NCBI RefSeq assembly: GCF_000336555.1
Contig: NZ_KB375281.1
Span: 1,220,713 to 1,284,712 of the forward strand
Reading direction: 5' to 3'
DNA from: Afipia clevelandensis ATCC 49720
GTDB lineage: Bacteria; Pseudomonadota; Alphaproteobacteria; Rhizobiales; Xanthobacteraceae
DNA: 64,000 bases
The position numbers and the translations under genes were made by a program. The notes under the pieces were generated by a model. It worked only from the letters and a program-made list of their open reading frames with translations, was not told where the DNA came from and did not search any database. Positions 8,793-58,619 of the stretch are shown here, in pieces; within the stretch, counting starts at the first letter, position 1, and each line of letters begins with the position of its first letter.

Positions 8793-9877
8793 AACCCGCA
8801 ACGCCCCTTCTTCTGTACATTGACGACGATGCCGATCTTGCGCGGCTGGTCGAGCGCGGATTGAAGCGGCAGGGATTCGCCGTGGAACATGCGCCCGACG
8901 GGGCGAGTGGTCTGGCGCGTATCAAGCAGGGTGGCGTCGATGTCGTGGCGCTCGACCAGCATATGCCCGGTCTCGATGGATTGGAAACGCTCGCCGAGAT
9001 CCAGAAAATTCCGGATGCGCCGCCGGTGATTTTCGTCACCGCCTCGCAGGATAGCAAGATTGCCGTCACCGCACTGAAGGCGGGCTCCGCGGATTATCTG
9101 GTCAAGGATACGCAGGGTGAATTTCTGGCCCTGCTCGACGTCGCCGCCAAGGGCGCGATCGAGCAGGCGCTGGTGCGCAAGGCCCGCGACGACGCCGAGG
9201 CGGAAGTCCACGCATCCCGCGACCGCTACGCCGCGCTGGCTGCGGAACGCGAGGTCCTGCTGCGCGAGGTCAATCACCGCGTCGGCAACAGCTTGCAGAT
9301 CATCGCATCGCTGCTGCATCTGCAGGCGAGTTCGAGCACGGACGAAGATGTGAAAGCAGCGCTCACCAACGCCATGGGCCGGGTCGCGGCTGTCGCGCAG
9401 GTGCATCGCCGGCTCTATACATCGCAGGACCTCAAGACGGTCATGCTCAATCAGTATCTCGAAGCGCTGCTGGAAGATCTGCGCCGCTCCGCGGAAGGCA
9501 ACCGGATGTCGCGCCTGACGCTGACCGCGGAACCCGTTGAAATTGATCCGGATCGCGCGGTCGCGATCGGCATCATCGTCAACGAGCTGGTGATGAATGC
9601 CGTCAAGTACGCCTATCCGGATGGCGCCGGCCCGATTCATGTCGATCTGCGGTCATGCGCAGACGGTCTTGAACTGTCGATTTCCGACGACGGCGTCGGC
9701 TTGCAGGTCAAGCAAAACCCGCAATCCACCGGCATGGGCCAGCGCATCGTGAGCGCGATGGCGACCAAGCTGGAAACCAAAGCCGAGCGCGATCCATCGC
9801 ATAGCGGCACGCGCGTTGTCCTGCGGCTGAAACAGGCGATCGGAACTTCGGCAAGGCAACCCGCCGGAGCCGCTTGA
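8789..9877 (+). CDS. Receiver-HisKA_2 hybrid histidine kinase
   Basis: 362 residues. The N-terminal receiver has acidic residues DDD at 12-14, Asp near 56 in VVALDQHMPGLDG, and a VTASQD and YLVKD core. A coiled coil (about 125-158) leads to a HisKA_2 dimerisation domain with REVNHRVGNSLQI, whose histidine is near 163. A short HATPase domain follows with NELVMNAVKYAYP and SDDGVGL. The domain order (receiver first, then kinase) lets an upstream phosphorylation event control a second kinase. HisKA_2 and HWE kinases often feed the PhyR-NepR-EcfG stress cascade. The target regulator is not in the window. Confidence 0.9.
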   Translation: MKPATPLLLYIDDDADLARLVERGLKRQGFAVEHAPDGASGLARIKQGGVDVVALDQHMPGLDGLETLAEIQKIPDAPPVIFVTASQDSKIAVTALKAGSADYLVKDTQGEFLALLDVAAKGAIEQALVRKARDDAEAEVHASRDRYAALAAEREVLLREVNHRVGNSLQIIASLLHLQASSSTDEDVKAALTNAMGRVAAVAQVHRRLYTSQDLKTVMLNQYLEALLEDLRRSAEGNRMSRLTLTAEPVEIDPDRAVAIGIIVNELVMNAVKYAYPDGAGPIHVDLRSCADGLELSISDDGVGLQVKQNPQSTGMGQRIVSAMATKLETKAERDPSHSGTRVVLRLKQAIGTSARQPAGAA

Positions 9878-48816: not shown

Positions 48817-49029
48817 ATGAAAATCCGCACCCGAAAACTGATCGGAACCTTCGGCCTCCTCGTGCTGGTGATTGTCTGGTCGCTGGCCGGCATGGTGATC
48901 GCGCAGACGCCGTGGCTCGCCAGTTCCAAGCTGTATCAGGCCATCTTCTATGTGGTGGCCGGTCTCGGCTGGGTGTTGCCTGCCATGCCGCTGATCGCCT
49001 GGATGTCGCGGCCCGACCCTCAGCCGTAG
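48817..49029 (+). CDS. DUF2842 small membrane protein
   Basis: 70 residues from ATG 48817: a basic start ([10 protein letters not shown]) and two transmembrane helices (about 10-30 and 42-62), ending [16 protein letters not shown]2842 is a small alphaproteobacterial family of unknown function, often next to ctaA as here. Its 3' end overlaps the end of the convergent NodB-fold gene by ten bases. Confidence 0.87.
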
Positions 49030-50084
49030 TTTTTGGCCAGTTCGGCCTTGGGCGCTTTTGGCGTCCGCACAGTGAGTCCCGAAACAACCACACGCAGCGA
49101 ACGCAGCGAACGCCGACGGCCGTCCCATGAAATCCGGGGCAGCGCCATCGGATCTGAGCGGCCGTCGGCGCGGATCACCCCCGGCACGGCGGACACCGCG
49201 CTGGCAAACCCGGCCTCCTGCACCAGCATCATTTCGCGTGGACCGAAGGAGTCCCGTGCTCCGAACGGATAGGCGAAATGACGGCATGGAGCGTTGAGCG
49301 CGGTCTCGATCACCGTCCGGCCCATGGTCATTTCCCGGAGCGCGGTGGTGCCCTTGGTGCGCGCGAGGTTTGGATAGTTGACGGTCGCGCTTCCAATGGT
49401 GGCCTGCGGATCGCGCGCCAGCTTGGCGAGATCCTGCCACGACATGGCGGCATCGCGCGATGCACTCTCGATGTCCACGCCGTAGCGGCCGCAGAGATCG
49501 CCGATGGCAGCGGCAACATCGTCCGGCGAGAGCGTCATCATCCAGGCGTGCAGCATCTCGTAAAGCTGATATTTCTCGGCGAGGCTCGGGGCGAAGAAAT
49601 GCTGCTCGGTCCGGTTCATCACCAGCCCGATGCGCGCGTTGCGTGCGATCACCTGCTCCAGCGCAAGCCACCACGCCTTGCCGATACCATCGACAAAGCC
49701 GGTAGGAACATACAGCGCAAACGGCACGCGGTGACGCGACAGGACCGGATAGGCGAATGTCATGAAATCGCGATGGCCGCCATCGAAGGTCAGGCACACA
49801 AAACGTCGCGCGAGCGCAGACTGCCGGGAGCGCTCCACGGCATCGTCAATGGACAAGACGTCGAAACCCCAGCGCTTCAGCGCCGAAACCGCACGGTCGA
49901 GGAATTCAGGAGTGACTTCGCTTTCCTGCAGCGGCTGGAACGGATCGCTGCCCCTCGGCCTGACATGCTGGAACCGGAGAATGACGCCCGCCCCGCCGGT
50001 CCGGCGTTCAAGGAGATGTGGCAGGCCGCTGAAATAAGCCAATTCCAGCCCGAGATCCGCCAGCAGCCCTTTCGCAAACAACAC
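49020..50084 (-). CDS. NodB-fold protein with a dead active site (pseudo-deacetylase)
   Basis: 354 residues from GTG 50084, with AAGGA upstream. The fold follows polysaccharide deacetylases: motif 1 is [11 protein letters not shown] (residues 96-106), motif 2 is [13 protein letters not shown] (230-242), motif 3 is RHFAYPFG (268-275). The metal triad of the active family is Asp-His-His (TFDD and HTxxH). Here the second Asp is Gly102 and the two His are Ala233 and Tyr237. The catalytic-base Asp101 remains. It is therefore unlikely to be a zinc deacetylase and may bind or position polysaccharide. It begins the polysaccharide locus, divergent from the acyltransferase gene. Confidence 0.85.
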
Positions 50085-51432: not shown

Positions 51433-53628
51433 TCAGGCTGCCGCGACCCGCTCTCCGGGCGCGCCGAGGTCCATGGCCCTCAAGGGAGTGTCGAGGATCG
51501 TCACGCCCACGAAGCCCGATGCCAGCAACTGCGCCTTCATCACATCGCGCGCCGTCGCCGTAATCGCCGGGTCGGGGATAATCACGGCATGCGCGTCGGT
51601 CGCGATGACATTGGCCGGCAGGTCCGAGGCGGTGCCGGCATCCAGCACCACGTAATCGTAGGCCCGCGAGAGCGCATCGACGGCCAGATTGATCCGGGGC
51701 AATTGCAGAAGCTGGCGCTGCGACGGCTCACGCCCCGCGCCCACGATGTGAACGCCCGACAGGCGGTCCTTGGTGATGATTTCGCCGAATGAGGCCGCCC
51801 CTTGCATCAGATCGGTCAGCCCCGGCGACGACGGGTCGCTCGAGACGGCGGCCAGTGTCGGCGATAACATCGCAAGATCGACCAGCACGACTTTCGCGCC
51901 CCGCGACAGCAGCCGCGCGAGCGTCAGGGCCACGAGCGTGACGCCCTCCTCCTGATGCGCACCGATCACCGTCACCTTCTTCGTGCCTCCGTGACCCAGC
52001 ACCGCAGCGAGACGTTCGATTTCGAGAATTCCCGCGGGCAGTTGCGGATGCGTATCGCGCAGCGGCGCCATCGGCGCGCGCGGCGACACCAGCGAGCGCG
52101 GCACGGTCATCCGCAGCAATTCGCCCGTGGCGATATAACCGCCCGTCAGCATCAGCGTCGCCAGCGTGGCGATCAGCACGGTCGGGAGCTTCTTCGGGAA
52201 CGCAGGCGTGTTCGAGACGATGCCCCGGGAAATGATCCGTCCGTCCGCCGGAACCGCGTCGATATTCTCGCGGGTGGTCGCCTCGCGATACTTGGCCAGA
52301 TACGACTCCAGCAGATCGCGCTGCGCCTTGGCTTCACGCTCTAGCGCCCGCAATTGCACGTCCTGACCGTTGGTGGAGGACGCCTGGCGCTTCAACTGGT
52401 CGAGGCTGCCGTTGAGTCCATCGGCCCGCGCGCTGGCGATCCGCGCGTCATTTTCCAGCGAGCGGGAAATCTTGCTCGCTTCCTCACGGATTTGGCGGTC
52501 GATGTCAGCGATCTGCGCCTTCAATTCCTTAATGCGCGGATGCCCGCCGAGCAGCGTGGAGGACTGTTCCGCCAGTTGCGCGCGCAGCGTTACGCGCTGC
52601 TCCGACAGGCGGCGCACCAGCTCGGAGTTGAGCACCTCGGACGCCTCGATGGGCTTGCCGCTCTGAAGCATTTCGCGGATCAGGCGCGCCTTGGACTCCG
52701 CGTCCGATTTCAGGGCCCGCGCATTGTTGAGTTGGGTGTTCATCTCGCCGAGCTGCTGGTTGGACAGCGTCGCGTTGTTGGTGCCGACGAACAGGTTCGA
52801 CTTCGAGCGAAACTCCTCAACCCGCGCTTCGGCGTCCGCGACCTTCTTGCGAAGACCCTCGATCTCGACAAGCAGCCATTGCGAGGCAGACTTGGCCTGA
52901 TTCTGCCGTGCCGCCTGTTGCAGCACGAGGTATCCGTCGGCAATCGAGTTGGTGACGCGCGCCGCGAGCTCCGGATCGCGCGACTGGAATTCGACCACCA
53001 TGACGCGCGACTTGTCGACGGCATATGCCGTCAGCCGCTCGTAATAGGCTTCCAGCACCCGCTCCTCGGGGGTCATCTTGAACGGATCGCGGCCGATGCC
53101 GAACAACGCCAGCAGCGTCTTGAGCGGCGAGATGCCGCGCAGCACCGGATCAAACTCCGGCAGCTCCGCCAGCTTGTTCGCCTTGATGACTTCGCGGGCA
53201 AGATCGCGCGACAGCAGCAACTGCACCTGGCTGGTGACAGCCTCGGCATCGAGACTGCCACGCTCTTCCGAGCGCTCACCGTTCGGCCGCAGGAAATAGT
53301 TTTCGCGCCCGTCAATCAGAATGCGCGCCTCGGACTTGTAGCGCGGCGTGATCATGTTCACGGCGACCATCGACAGCACGAAGGCCAGCGCGGTCGGCAC
53401 GATCACCCACATCCGCTTGCGGACAAGCGTGTCCCAGATGGCGCGAAGGTCGAGATCGCCGAGTTCGGGAGCAACCCCATGCGCGGCAGGAGTGATGGCC
53501 GGCGCCGGAACGACGGGCGCAGAAACGATGGGCGCAGCCGCCGGGGTCGGCGCGGCCGCGGCTTTCGTCTTGGCTTTGGCGCGGAAAGAAATCTTGTCCA
53601 TCCAGTCGCGCCAGAACGACAAACGCAT
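51433..53628 (-). CDS. Wzz/BY-kinase-type polysaccharide co-polymerase with degenerate kinase domain
   Basis: 731 residues from ATG 53628. Order: Pro/Ala-rich N-terminus, TM1 (about 73-92), a large periplasmic coiled-coil Wzz region (about 110-470), TM2 (about 481-503), then a cytosolic kinase-like domain. In active BY-kinases the Walker A reads GxxxGxGKS/T. Here the corresponding segment is VIGAHQEEGVTLVALTLAR, without Lys. Walker A' is VVLVDLAML rather than the usual DxDxR, and no C-terminal Tyr cluster is present. It probably sets chain length and export, without kinase activity. It is divergent from the Wza-type gene. Confidence 0.88.
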   Translation of the reverse strand: MRLSFWRDWMDKISFRAKAKTKAAAAPTPAAAPIVSAPVVPAPAITPAAHGVAPELGDLDLRAIWDTLVRKRMWVIVPTALAFVLSMVAVNMITPRYKSEARILIDGRENYFLRPNGERSEERGSLDAEAVTSQVQLLLSRDLAREVIKANKLAELPEFDPVLRGISPLKTLLALFGIGRDPFKMTPEERVLEAYYERLTAYAVDKSRVMVVEFQSRDPELAARVTNSIADGYLVLQQAARQNQAKSASQWLLVEIEGLRKKVADAEARVEEFRSKSNLFVGTNNATLSNQQLGEMNTQLNNARALKSDAESKARLIREMLQSGKPIEASEVLNSELVRRLSEQRVTLRAQLAEQSSTLLGGHPRIKELKAQIADIDRQIREEASKISRSLENDARIASARADGLNGSLDQLKRQASSTNGQDVQLRALEREAKAQRDLLESYLAKYREATTRENIDAVPADGRIISRGIVSNTPAFPKKLPTVLIATLATLMLTGGYIATGELLRMTVPRSLVSPRAPMAPLRDTHPQLPAGILEIERLAAVLGHGGTKKVTVIGAHQEEGVTLVALTLARLLSRGAKVVLVDLAMLSPTLAAVSSDPSSPGLTDLMQGAASFGEIITKDRLSGVHIVGAGREPSQRQLLQLPRINLAVDALSRAYDYVVLDAGTASDLPANVIATDAHAVIIPDPAITATARDVMKAQLLASGFVGVTILDTPLRAMDLGAPGERVAAA

Positions 53629-53817
53629 CGAAACTCTCCACCCGAACGCCACTACACTCGCTGCCCTGAGCGCCCCGATTACAGTCTATTAAGGTTGCTG
53701 CCCGGTTAATCGCGACACTATCGCCGCTCATTTCCCTTGCGGCGCAGCAGCTTCGTTACCGCTTTGTTAACCATAAAAGCCCTTAATCAGACTCGGTATT
53801 TAACCGGATTCCCCTTC

Positions 53818-54476: not shown

Positions 54477-55610
54477 ATGCCCGAGACGCCCGACTCTCCC
54501 TTGCGCATCCTGCACGCTGTCCGCGCGCCGGTCGGCGGCATTTTCCGGCATATCCTCGATCTCGCCGCGGGCCAGGCCGAGCGTGGACATGCGGTCGGCA
54601 TTCTTGCTGACAGCCTGACAGGCGGAGAGCGCGCCGAAGCTGCGCTGAAGGAGATCGCCCCCAAACTCAAACTCGGTGTGTATCGCCTCGCCATTCGCCG
54701 CGAGCCGCATCCGGTGGACAGCATCACGTCGCTGCATTTTCTTCGCCTCGTCCGCTCGCTGAAACTCGATGTGCTGCACGGGCATGGCGCCAAGGCTGGC
54801 GCCTTCGTGCGCATGAAACGCAAGTCGAAGAAGGCGATCCGGGTCTACACGCCTCACGGCGGCTCTCTGCACTACCCGCCGGGCACGCTGAAGGGCAACG
54901 TCTACGCGCGCATGGAGCGCGCGCTGATGAACCGCACCGAACTGTTCCTGTTCGAGAGCGGATTCGCCCGCGACACCTATCAGCGCGTGATCGGCAAGCC
55001 CGCCGGACTGGTCCGCTGCGTCTTCAACGGCGTGACCGCAACCGAATTCGATCCCGTCCCGCTCGCGGAGGACGCCACCGACATCGTCTATGTCGGCGAA
55101 TTCCGAGAGATCAAGGGCGCCGACCTGCTGATCCAGGCCGTCGCCCGGCTGCGCGCCGACGGCAAGCCCGTGACATTGACGCTCGCGGGCGATGGCGAGG
55201 AAACCGAGAACCTGAAAGCGCTCATCGCCAAATTGAATGTTGGCGATGCGGTCCGCTTTATCGGCCATGTCAAAGCCCGCTACGGCTTTTCCAAGGGCAA
55301 GGTACTGGTCGTCCCCTCCCGCGGCGACTCGATGCCCTATGTCGTGATCGAGGCCGCAGCCGCCGGTATCCCGATGGTCGCCGCCAATGTCGGCGGTATT
55401 CCGGAAATCTTCGGTCCCTATACCGACGGTCTTTTCGTCGCCAACAGCATTGGCGCGATGGCGGATGCCATCGAGACCGCACTCGGCGACATGGACAAGA
55501 CGCGCGAGCGCGCCCGCGATCTGCGCGAACGTGTCTTCGTCCATTTCTCCCAGAAGGCGATGGTCGACGGCGTGCTCGCCGGATATCGCGACGCGTTTAA
55601 CGCGCGTTAA
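54477..55610 (+). CDS. Family 4 glycosyltransferase
   Basis: 377 residues, GT-B fold. N-terminal ILHAVRAPVGGIFRHILDLAAGQAERGHAVGIL is typical of GT4. The donor-binding C-terminal domain has DIVYVGEFREIKGADLLIQAV, LAGDGEETENLKAL, and VVPSRGDSMPYVVIEAAAAGIPMVAANVGGIPEIF containing the EX7E-like motif. It adds a sugar from a nucleotide-sugar donor to a lipid-linked precursor. Its ATG lies two bases after the export gene's stop, so the two are co-translated. Confidence 0.93.
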   Translation: MPETPDSPLRILHAVRAPVGGIFRHILDLAAGQAERGHAVGILADSLTGGERAEAALKEIAPKLKLGVYRLAIRREPHPVDSITSLHFLRLVRSLKLDVLHGHGAKAGAFVRMKRKSKKAIRVYTPHGGSLHYPPGTLKGNVYARMERALMNRTELFLFESGFARDTYQRVIGKPAGLVRCVFNGVTATEFDPVPLAEDATDIVYVGEFREIKGADLLIQAVARLRADGKPVTLTLAGDGEETENLKALIAKLNVGDAVRFIGHVKARYGFSKGKVLVVPSRGDSMPYVVIEAAAAGIPMVAANVGGIPEIFGPYTDGLFVANSIGAMADAIETALGDMDKTRERARDLRERVFVHFSQKAMVDGVLAGYRDAFNAR

Positions 55611-57362: not shown

Positions 57363-58619
57363 ATGGCGTCATTTGCCGCGACAGACTACACCCTGCCCGC
57401 TGCCACGACGCCGCCCGGCATCGCGGCGGTCCAGCGGGCATTGATGTGGGCCGTCGGCGCCGGCGGAGCCATCGTCTTCATCGAACCCAGCCCGTACGAG
57501 CTGATGACGCTGGCGTCGGTGATCTTCTTCTTCGCCACCGGCCTGCGGATGCGGCCGGTGTTCATTCCGCTTTTGATCCTGCTGTTCCTGCTCAACATCG
57601 GCTACACGATCTGCGCCGCCTACCTGATGGACAAGAAGGAAATCCTGAACTGGATTCTCACGTCCTGGTACATGGCCATCACGGCGCTGTTCTTTGCGAT
57701 GGTTCTGTCCGAGAACACCGCCGAGCGGCTGGAGTTTCTCCGGCGCGGGCTGATTTTCGGCGCGCTCATTGCGTCGCTGGCGGGCATTGCCGGCTATTTC
57801 CGGCTGGTGCCGGGCGCAGGCTACGACCTCTTCACGCTCTACAGCCGTGCGCGCGGCACCTTCAAGGACCCCAATGTCCTTGGCGCGTATCTGATCCTGC
57901 CTGCGATGTTCCTGTTGCAGAGCGTCGTCACCCAGTCGCTCCGGAGATCGTTCTGGAGCGCGGTGGGCCTCGGCATTCTCAGCCTCGCTGTGTTGCTTGC
58001 CTTTTCGCGCGCATCATGGGGCCAGTTGATCGGCTGCTCGGCCTTCATGCTGGCCTTGATGTATCTCACCTCACCCTCACGGGCCCAAAGACAGCGGATC
58101 GTCACGGTGGCCATCGCCGCGGCCGTATTCGCAGCGTTGCTGCTGCTTGTGCTGCTGTCGTTCGATTCCATCAGCGGGTTGTTCAAGGAGCGTGCGAGCC
58201 TGCATCAAAGCTATGACAGCGGCCGCTTCGGACGTTTCGGCCGCCATATCCTCGGCTTCCAGATGGCGCTCGAACTGCCGCTCGGCATCGGCCCGCTTCA
58301 GTTCACGAAATTCTTTCCGGAAGACACCCACAACTCGTTCCTGAATGCATTCATGTCCGGCGGCTGGATCTCGGGAATCTGTTTTCCCGCGCTGGTGTTC
58401 ATTACCGTCATCATGGGCTTCAAGCTGATCTTCGTGCGCGTGCCATGGCAGCGAACCTATCTCGCGGTCTTCGCGGCGTTCTTCGGCACGGTTTGCGAAG
58501 CGTTCATCATCGACGTCGATCACTGGCGTCACTTCTGGATGATGCTGGGCATCATGTGGGCGATGATCGCGGCGGCCCATGTCTACGCCTATCGCGGCTC
58601 GGCGGCCAAGGCCCTCTGA
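57363..58619 (+). CDS. O-antigen ligase/polymerase family protein (Wzy_C)
   Basis: 418 residues with about ten to eleven transmembrane helices. The long periplasmic loop near 280-330 contains DSGRFGRFGRHILGFQMALELPLGIGPLQFTKFFPEDTHNSFLNAFMSGGWI. The Arg- and His-containing DTHNSFLNAF motif is typical of Wzy and WaaL. It joins repeat units into a polymer or ligates them. It is the last gene of the locus and follows the initiating transferase on the same strand. Confidence 0.9.
   Translation: MASFAATDYTLPAATTPPGIAAVQRALMWAVGAGGAIVFIEPSPYELMTLASVIFFFATGLRMRPVFIPLLILLFLLNIGYTICAAYLMDKKEILNWILTSWYMAITALFFAMVLSENTAERLEFLRRGLIFGALIASLAGIAGYFRLVPGAGYDLFTLYSRARGTFKDPNVLGAYLILPAMFLLQSVVTQSLRRSFWSAVGLGILSLAVLLAFSRASWGQLIGCSAFMLALMYLTSPSRAQRQRIVTVAIAAAVFAALLLLVLLSFDSISGLFKERASLHQSYDSGRFGRFGRHILGFQMALELPLGIGPLQFTKFFPEDTHNSFLNAFMSGGWISGICFPALVFITVIMGFKLIFVRVPWQRTYLAVFAAFFGTVCEAFIIDVDHWRHFWMMLGIMWAMIAAAHVYAYRGSAAKAL

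Follow-up and report, generated by a model that had tools for sequence, protein, structure and literature searches.

A predicted pseudo-deacetylase of the NodB fold in a polysaccharide locus of Afipia and its relatives

The streptococcal de-N-acetylase PplD (6dq3), PgaB/BpsB and IcaB belong, by sequence, to the same family as the protein described here. In PplD the zinc ligands are D168, H223 and H227, the proposed acid/base is H105, the N-terminal His, and D167 is held by R302, with H105A and D167N treated as inactive versions (PMC8807736). Members of the fold that depart from this scheme have been described: Ba0150 (4M1B) and EcCDA (2VYO) are CE4 proteins reported as inert or probably inactive, which are grouped with NodB1 proteins, and PuuE allantoinase (3CL6), a NodB barrel without the usual metal site, is described as non-metal-dependent with motifs 1 and 2 altered (PMC10967932). 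As for polysaccharide loci, deacetylation by HfsH, which needs its active-site Asp, matters in the Caulobacterales holdfast (PMC8449245), and in B. ottawaense an upp cluster is reported with uppC lying apart (PMC12727192).

The window analyzed here is a stretch of 64,000 nucleotides (G000:C1:1220713-1284712) from the Afipia clevelandensis ATCC 49720 genome, a single contig of 4.4 Mb. At positions 49020..50084 on its minus strand it carries a gene with a GTG start for a protein of 354 aa, which scores 45.3 bits on PF01522 (Polysacc_deac_1 / NodB fold; cut-off 23.1) and, judging by its relatives, is a CE4 protein of the NodB2 type. Both this match and a phmmer alignment with PplD agree with the original prediction that the NodB fold is kept. 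Like PplD, the window protein has an Asp and an Arg (D101 and R317) that line up with D167 and R302; unlike PplD, PgaB/BpsB and IcaB, it has other residues in place of the three zinc ligands and of the catalytic His. It resembles Ba0150 and EcCDA in being a NodB-fold protein of a kind reported as inert or without metal or catalytic residues (PMC10967932), and differs from them in that its relatives are NodB2-type, that the loss is clade-wide, and that the gene belongs to a Wzy-type polysaccharide locus, an intact paralogue being located elsewhere. Going by published descriptions, it is like HfsH in that a deacetylase-family gene lies within a polysaccharide locus, an adhesin locus in the case of HfsH, and the HfsH/HfsK modifying pair resembles the deacetylase and acyltransferase pair of the window; unlike HfsH, the window protein has lost its site (PMC8449245). 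It shares with PuuE a barrel without the usual metal site and differs in class and context. Pseudo-deacetylases are already known elsewhere, and the clade of the window protein is, on its sequences, a real conserved pseudoenzyme. Searching open-licence literature, judged by titles and the beginnings of abstracts, we found no description of this clade. The closest named records, among the matches listed, are from Bradyrhizobiaceae bacterium SG-6C (98%) and several Afipia, and most listed homologues that carry a name in their source are called 'polysaccharide deacetylase' or 'PgdA/CDA1 family deacetylase'. A plasmid search with the window protein returned 28 records, all below 60% identity (25-32% in the 15 rows listed), and added nothing.

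Active-site residues of the window protein and its homologues

Residues were mapped through the phmmer alignment to PplD, in which the chain number plus 90 gives the published numbering and which equates D101 with D167, G102 with D168, A233 with H223, and Y237 with H227. Residues 99-102 of the window protein read TFDG and residues 232-238 read SATVNYP; the Asp-His-His metal triad of active CE4 deacetylases is absent. All codons concerned lie on the minus strand: D101 is kept and the metal-ligand Asp beside it has become Gly (D101-G102 at 49779..49784, the G102 codon being 49781-49779), the first metal-ligand His is Ala233 (49386..49388) and the second is Tyr237 (49374..49376). These three replacements had been proposed from the sequence alone, and the mapping onto the PplD zinc site bears them out. 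A fourth lost catalytic residue, missing from the original prediction, is the motif-5 His of the NodB2 class, where the window protein has Gln39 (49968..49970). In a profile built from both copies of the deacetylase (A2), position 39 falls on the histidine of the N-terminal VLxxH motif of BpsB, and R317 (49134..49136) on PplD R302, the Arg that pairs with the motif-1 Asp. Since position 39 is His in 85 of the 86 family proteins outside the pseudoenzyme clade (and in 0/31 inside), and position 40 varies, we take position 39, not the adjacent His40, as the catalytic site. R317 is retained in 31/31 clade members and in all 86 others, and D101 in 31/31 clade members. By sequence, then, the zinc site and the acid/base are both gone and the Asp-Arg pair stays. 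Asp101 had been described as the remaining catalytic base; the residue is indeed kept, but the label is weaker here because the proposed acid/base of PplD is the N-terminal His, which is lost. We conclude that the window protein is very probably a catalytically dead pseudoenzyme.

Among the best 120 of 2698 homologues (58-98% identity), Asp102 is kept in 0/120, His233 in 0/120 and His237 in 1/120, and position 101 is Asp in 113 and Glu in 7. We also took 117 family proteins from the fetched loci and read the pattern at positions 39, 101, 102, 233 and 237: 83 proteins were HDDHH, one was RDDHH (G037), 31 belonged to the pseudoenzyme clade and two were stray cases, HDGHF (G014) and HDGHH (G035, a second copy). 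Within the clade (n = 31), position 102 is Gly in 30 and Cys in 1; position 233 is Ala in 27 and Ser in 4; position 237 is Tyr in 26, Gly in 3, Asn in 1 and His in 1; and position 39 is Glu in 20, Gln in 7, Ala in 2, Arg in 1 and Asp in 1. All 31 members have a full-length reading frame (337-418 aa); a loose genome scan placed one stop inside the match for G095, G016 and G050, yet these have open frames of 337-403 aa.

A single decayed copy or a sequencing error was considered and is ruled out by the homologues, which include a 98%-identical protein from a separately named record (P0001). An error had been judged very unlikely from the start, in keeping with a triad loss common to the 120 listed homologues (one with His237), and the close orthologues lack the triad, so this is not one decayed copy. 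More distant syntenic counterparts keep the triad; this assigns the loss to a single clade and does not speak against it. Across 297 genomes of the order, matches at 53-58% identity occurred in the window's family only, with the next best at ≤42%; 20 loci were read, of 68 genomes of other families matching at E <= 1e-60, and all were HDDHH.

The polysaccharide locus, the intact second copy and gene loss

On one side the pseudo-deacetylase gene is followed by a DUF2842 gene for 70 aa (48817-49029, plus strand), which overlaps its 3' end by 10 bp on the opposite strand, and by CtaA (PF02628; 47617..48717, minus strand), a conserved flank outside the polysaccharide machinery. On the other side, a GNAT-fold acyltransferase (PF13480; 50123..51427, plus strand; start codon uncertain) is divergent from it, followed by a Wzz/Wzc-like co-polymerase (51433..53652, minus strand) and then, on the plus strand, a Wza-type export protein (PF02563; 53737..54474), a GT4 glycosyltransferase (54477..55610), a WcaJ/HfsE-type initiating sugar phosphotransferase (PF02397; 55726..57276) and a Wzy/O-antigen ligase-like membrane protein (57363..58619; 29.4 bits, slightly below the 31.7 cut-off). 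The initiating transferase scored 496.9 against the WcaJ profile TIGR03023 (cut-off 410.75) and 334.3 against HfsE (cut-off 750). The genome has no other PF02397 match, and just one PF02563 match besides the Wza protein, so that we probably have here its main locus for a Wzy-type surface polysaccharide; it could be the unipolar polysaccharide (UPP) locus. In the sister genera, the slot METZ-CtaA-[deacetylase]-(GNAT)-Wzz-GT4-transferase holds an intact enzyme, the GNAT gene not always being adjacent, and by this gene order the window gene is the positional counterpart of the intact deacetylase in the same locus.

The terminal P-loop domain of the Wzz/Wzc-like protein reads GAHQEEGVTL and has no Walker A Lys. 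That Lys is present in 0/81 aligned locus homologues of the protein, beside intact or dead deacetylases, and 75/81 lack a Tyr within their final 45 residues. From its sequence this protein is a second degenerate enzyme, a pseudo-kinase, in the same locus. Elsewhere in the window, an undefined tRNA with a four-base anticodon called by ARAGORN (9654-9747, minus strand) had no Rfam match at gathering level and is probably a false positive.

The window genome holds a paralogue at G000:C1:3488206-3489192 with all five positions intact (HDDHH), a pattern found in 120/120 listed homologues of this second copy (best 120 of 7923). The neighborhood of the second copy is fixed: an OmpA/BON-domain gene flanks it, most genomes have an SDR gene on the opposite side, and several such neighborhoods hold homologues of the Fer4/NAD-binding and PaaA/PaaC-domain genes that the window genome has there. 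A table of the 91 genomes with a match, of 119 searched, leaving out four weaker matches (G079:C22, G088:C23, G026:C3 and G107:C26), gave the following pattern. A degenerate resident occurs with an intact second copy in 23 genomes; a resident with intact DDHH and no second copy in 45 (including G037, with Arg39); a second copy without a resident deacetylase, the rest of the locus being present, in 10; and a degenerate resident without the second copy in four (G014, G039, G052 and G090), of which G014 and G039 have another intact family member and G052 and G090 are represented by fragments only. In the remaining nine genomes the flanks did not place the gene at the locus: in G002, G017 and G117 an intact copy, probably a resident, lies next to Wzz or GNAT; G043 has the locus and lacks the deacetylase gene; and in G027, G030, G044, G074 and G096 the copy is intact and none of the locus genes was seen. 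Counting the resident of G039, clade members occur in 24 of the sampled genomes. All 24 also hold an intact family member, at one fixed second site in 23 and as another relative in G039. A Fisher test on hand-entered counts was dropped, as it ignores kinship between genomes and the four weaker matches.

Two observations fall outside this pattern. The resident of G014 (L123:8925-9983), from another genus, reads HDGHF and is accompanied by an intact HDDHH copy (L180) elsewhere in the genome; the same kind of loss may have occurred here independently or at an early stage. G035 (L156) shows the reverse arrangement, with an off-locus second family copy in which Asp102 is Gly and both His are kept, and an intact resident.

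In a tree built with the motif columns removed (104 of 117 rows, after 13 near-duplicates or outliers were dropped), the pseudoenzyme clade (26 of 31 rows kept) forms one side of a branch supported at 100/98; for the second-copy clade (26 of 29 rows) the support is 100/100. A quick tree of all 117 rows gave them support of 99 and 79, respectively. Both in the quick tree and in a tree with the second-copy clade as outgroup, the pseudoenzyme clade groups with the resident copies, the branching among residents being weak (67/17 at the node joining the pseudoenzyme group to 33 further rows). As the loss of the zinc ligands and the catalytic His is common to one clade, it most simply happened once. 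G037 (R39, triad intact) and G014 (HDGHF) adjoin the clade at nodes 96/29 and 95/96; they may be stepwise intermediates, but they sit on long branches, so that attraction is possible. A recent duplication of the resident as the source of the second copy is unsupported, the second copy being a clade of its own and the pseudoenzyme clade lying with the residents; given this separation, the second copy may be either an old duplicate or an import.

In the 11 loci without the gene (L104-L114; the 10 genomes above and G043), the spacing between the CtaA and GNAT ORFs is -15 to 553 bp, with no remnant of a deacetylase gene better than E 0.13. In six gene-bearing controls the spacing is 1302-1539 bp in five and 520 bp in one, the latter probably reflecting an over-long ORF call. 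Short gaps without a remnant indicate that the gene was cleanly lost, perhaps more than once. Since 10 genomes with the second copy lack it in an otherwise present locus, the gene is not essential to the locus.

Selection on the gene and rival explanations

Nei-Gojobori dN/dS was computed for 19 pseudoenzyme pairs and 8 active-copy pairs. The pseudoenzyme gene gave 0.075-0.218 when the window gene was paired with 8 relatives and 0.093-0.283 in 11 other pairs, and the active copy gave 0.124-0.230 (3 pairs) and 0.101-0.227 (5 pairs); synonymous sites were fairly diverged in the window comparisons (dS 0.78-1.16). These ratios indicate that the pseudoenzyme gene is under purifying selection. We then compared conservation within the protein (151 clade sequences, effective number 48; old active-site loops chosen by hand). 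Mean entropy in the pseudoenzyme clade was 0.63 in the motif loops and 1.36 in the rest (p 1.6e-8), compared with 0.37 and 1.16 in the second copy and 0.56 and 1.26 in the intact residents. As the active copies share this contrast, part of the conservation may be an inherited constraint of the fold. Six clade-specific residues (Leu52, Trp72, Trp320, Asp321, Arg323 and Ser326) are nonetheless 95-99% fixed and are variable or different in active copies; Leu52 and Asp321 are both Asn there. On these sequences, the old active site looks rebuilt rather than left to drift.

The gene could instead be in slow decay, a resident made redundant by the intact second copy, on its way out and kept by chance or for a minor structural role. 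The 10 genomes in which the locus persists with a second copy and no resident fit this account, as do the faster divergence of the protein relative to the active copy (136/136 genome pairs, with a median of 1.36 for the ratio) and motif loops that are less tight than those of either the second copy or the intact residents. The rate of divergence is about that of the neighboring GNAT (medians 0.464 and 0.438). A dN/dS of about 0.1-0.2 in most pairs, like that of the active copy and the GNAT, the new and nearly fixed residues in pocket loops more conserved than the rest of the protein, and the full-length frame in every clade member argue against decay, which we consider unlikely. Absence from 10 genomes weighs for an accessory role or decay, and conservation of the pocket weighs against decay.

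Two further accounts would give the protein a function of another kind. As a regulatory subunit, the dead copy would form a heteromer with the intact paralogue and control its activity or place. The second copy does accompany the clade in 23/24 carrying genomes, with another intact family member in G039, but 10 genomes hold the intact second copy without the dead one, and the extracellular domain of PplD is reported to be a monomer in solution (PMC8807736); we regard this account as improbable. It is likewise improbable that the NodB barrel has been re-tooled as a metal-independent enzyme for another reaction. Here PuuE, NodB-fold and non-metal-dependent by description (PMC10967932), is a precedent, and D101 and R317 are kept in 31/31 clade members with D321, W320 and R323 nearly fixed. 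A structural salt bridge would account for D101 and R317, though, and the motif-5 residue varies among Glu, Gln, Ala, Arg and Asp, leaving no conserved acid/base replacement; this variability counts against a tightly specified new chemistry.

A pseudo-deacetylase that may still bind glycan

Our preferred reading, to which we give a probability of roughly 0.6 on the sequence evidence, is that the window protein is a pseudo-deacetylase whose chemistry is done by the paralogue and which still binds glycan. It agrees with the original prediction of a pseudo-deacetylase in polysaccharide assembly, given the clade-wide loss of the triad and the His, the purifying selection and the fixed locus of Wzz, Wza, WcaJ and Wzy type; retention for binding or scaffolding, as proposed there, is plausible. 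That the deacetylase function has passed to the second copy is likely, this handing over being read from presence and absence across genomes. For the dead copy itself, we lean slightly toward a glycan-binding or control role over slow decay. In such a scheme the intact paralogue would carry out de-N-acetylation, and the dead copy would bind the N-acetylated, probably lipid-linked, glycan of the WcaJ/Wzy-type polymer without cutting it. It could in this way limit or steer modification, for example by shielding acetyl groups, or alternatively by presenting the glycan to the neighboring GNAT-type acyltransferase.

More speculatively, the whole clade may have been converted, in a single event of origin, into a glycan sensor or acetyl-group protector, an idea we hold to be doubtful. 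If it were true, the dead copy and its living paralogue would be competitors for one lipid-linked repeat unit, and this competition would set the degree of acetylation, and hence the stickiness, of the cell-surface polymer. Nature provides three states of the system, namely an intact resident, a dead resident with an intact second copy, and the second copy alone, and the role is therefore directly testable. Because the listed homologues, where named, mostly bear deacetylase names, the wrong gene may be given the credit in models of polymer modification in Afipia, Bradyrhizobium and their kin; the intact second copy, away from the locus, can easily be missed.
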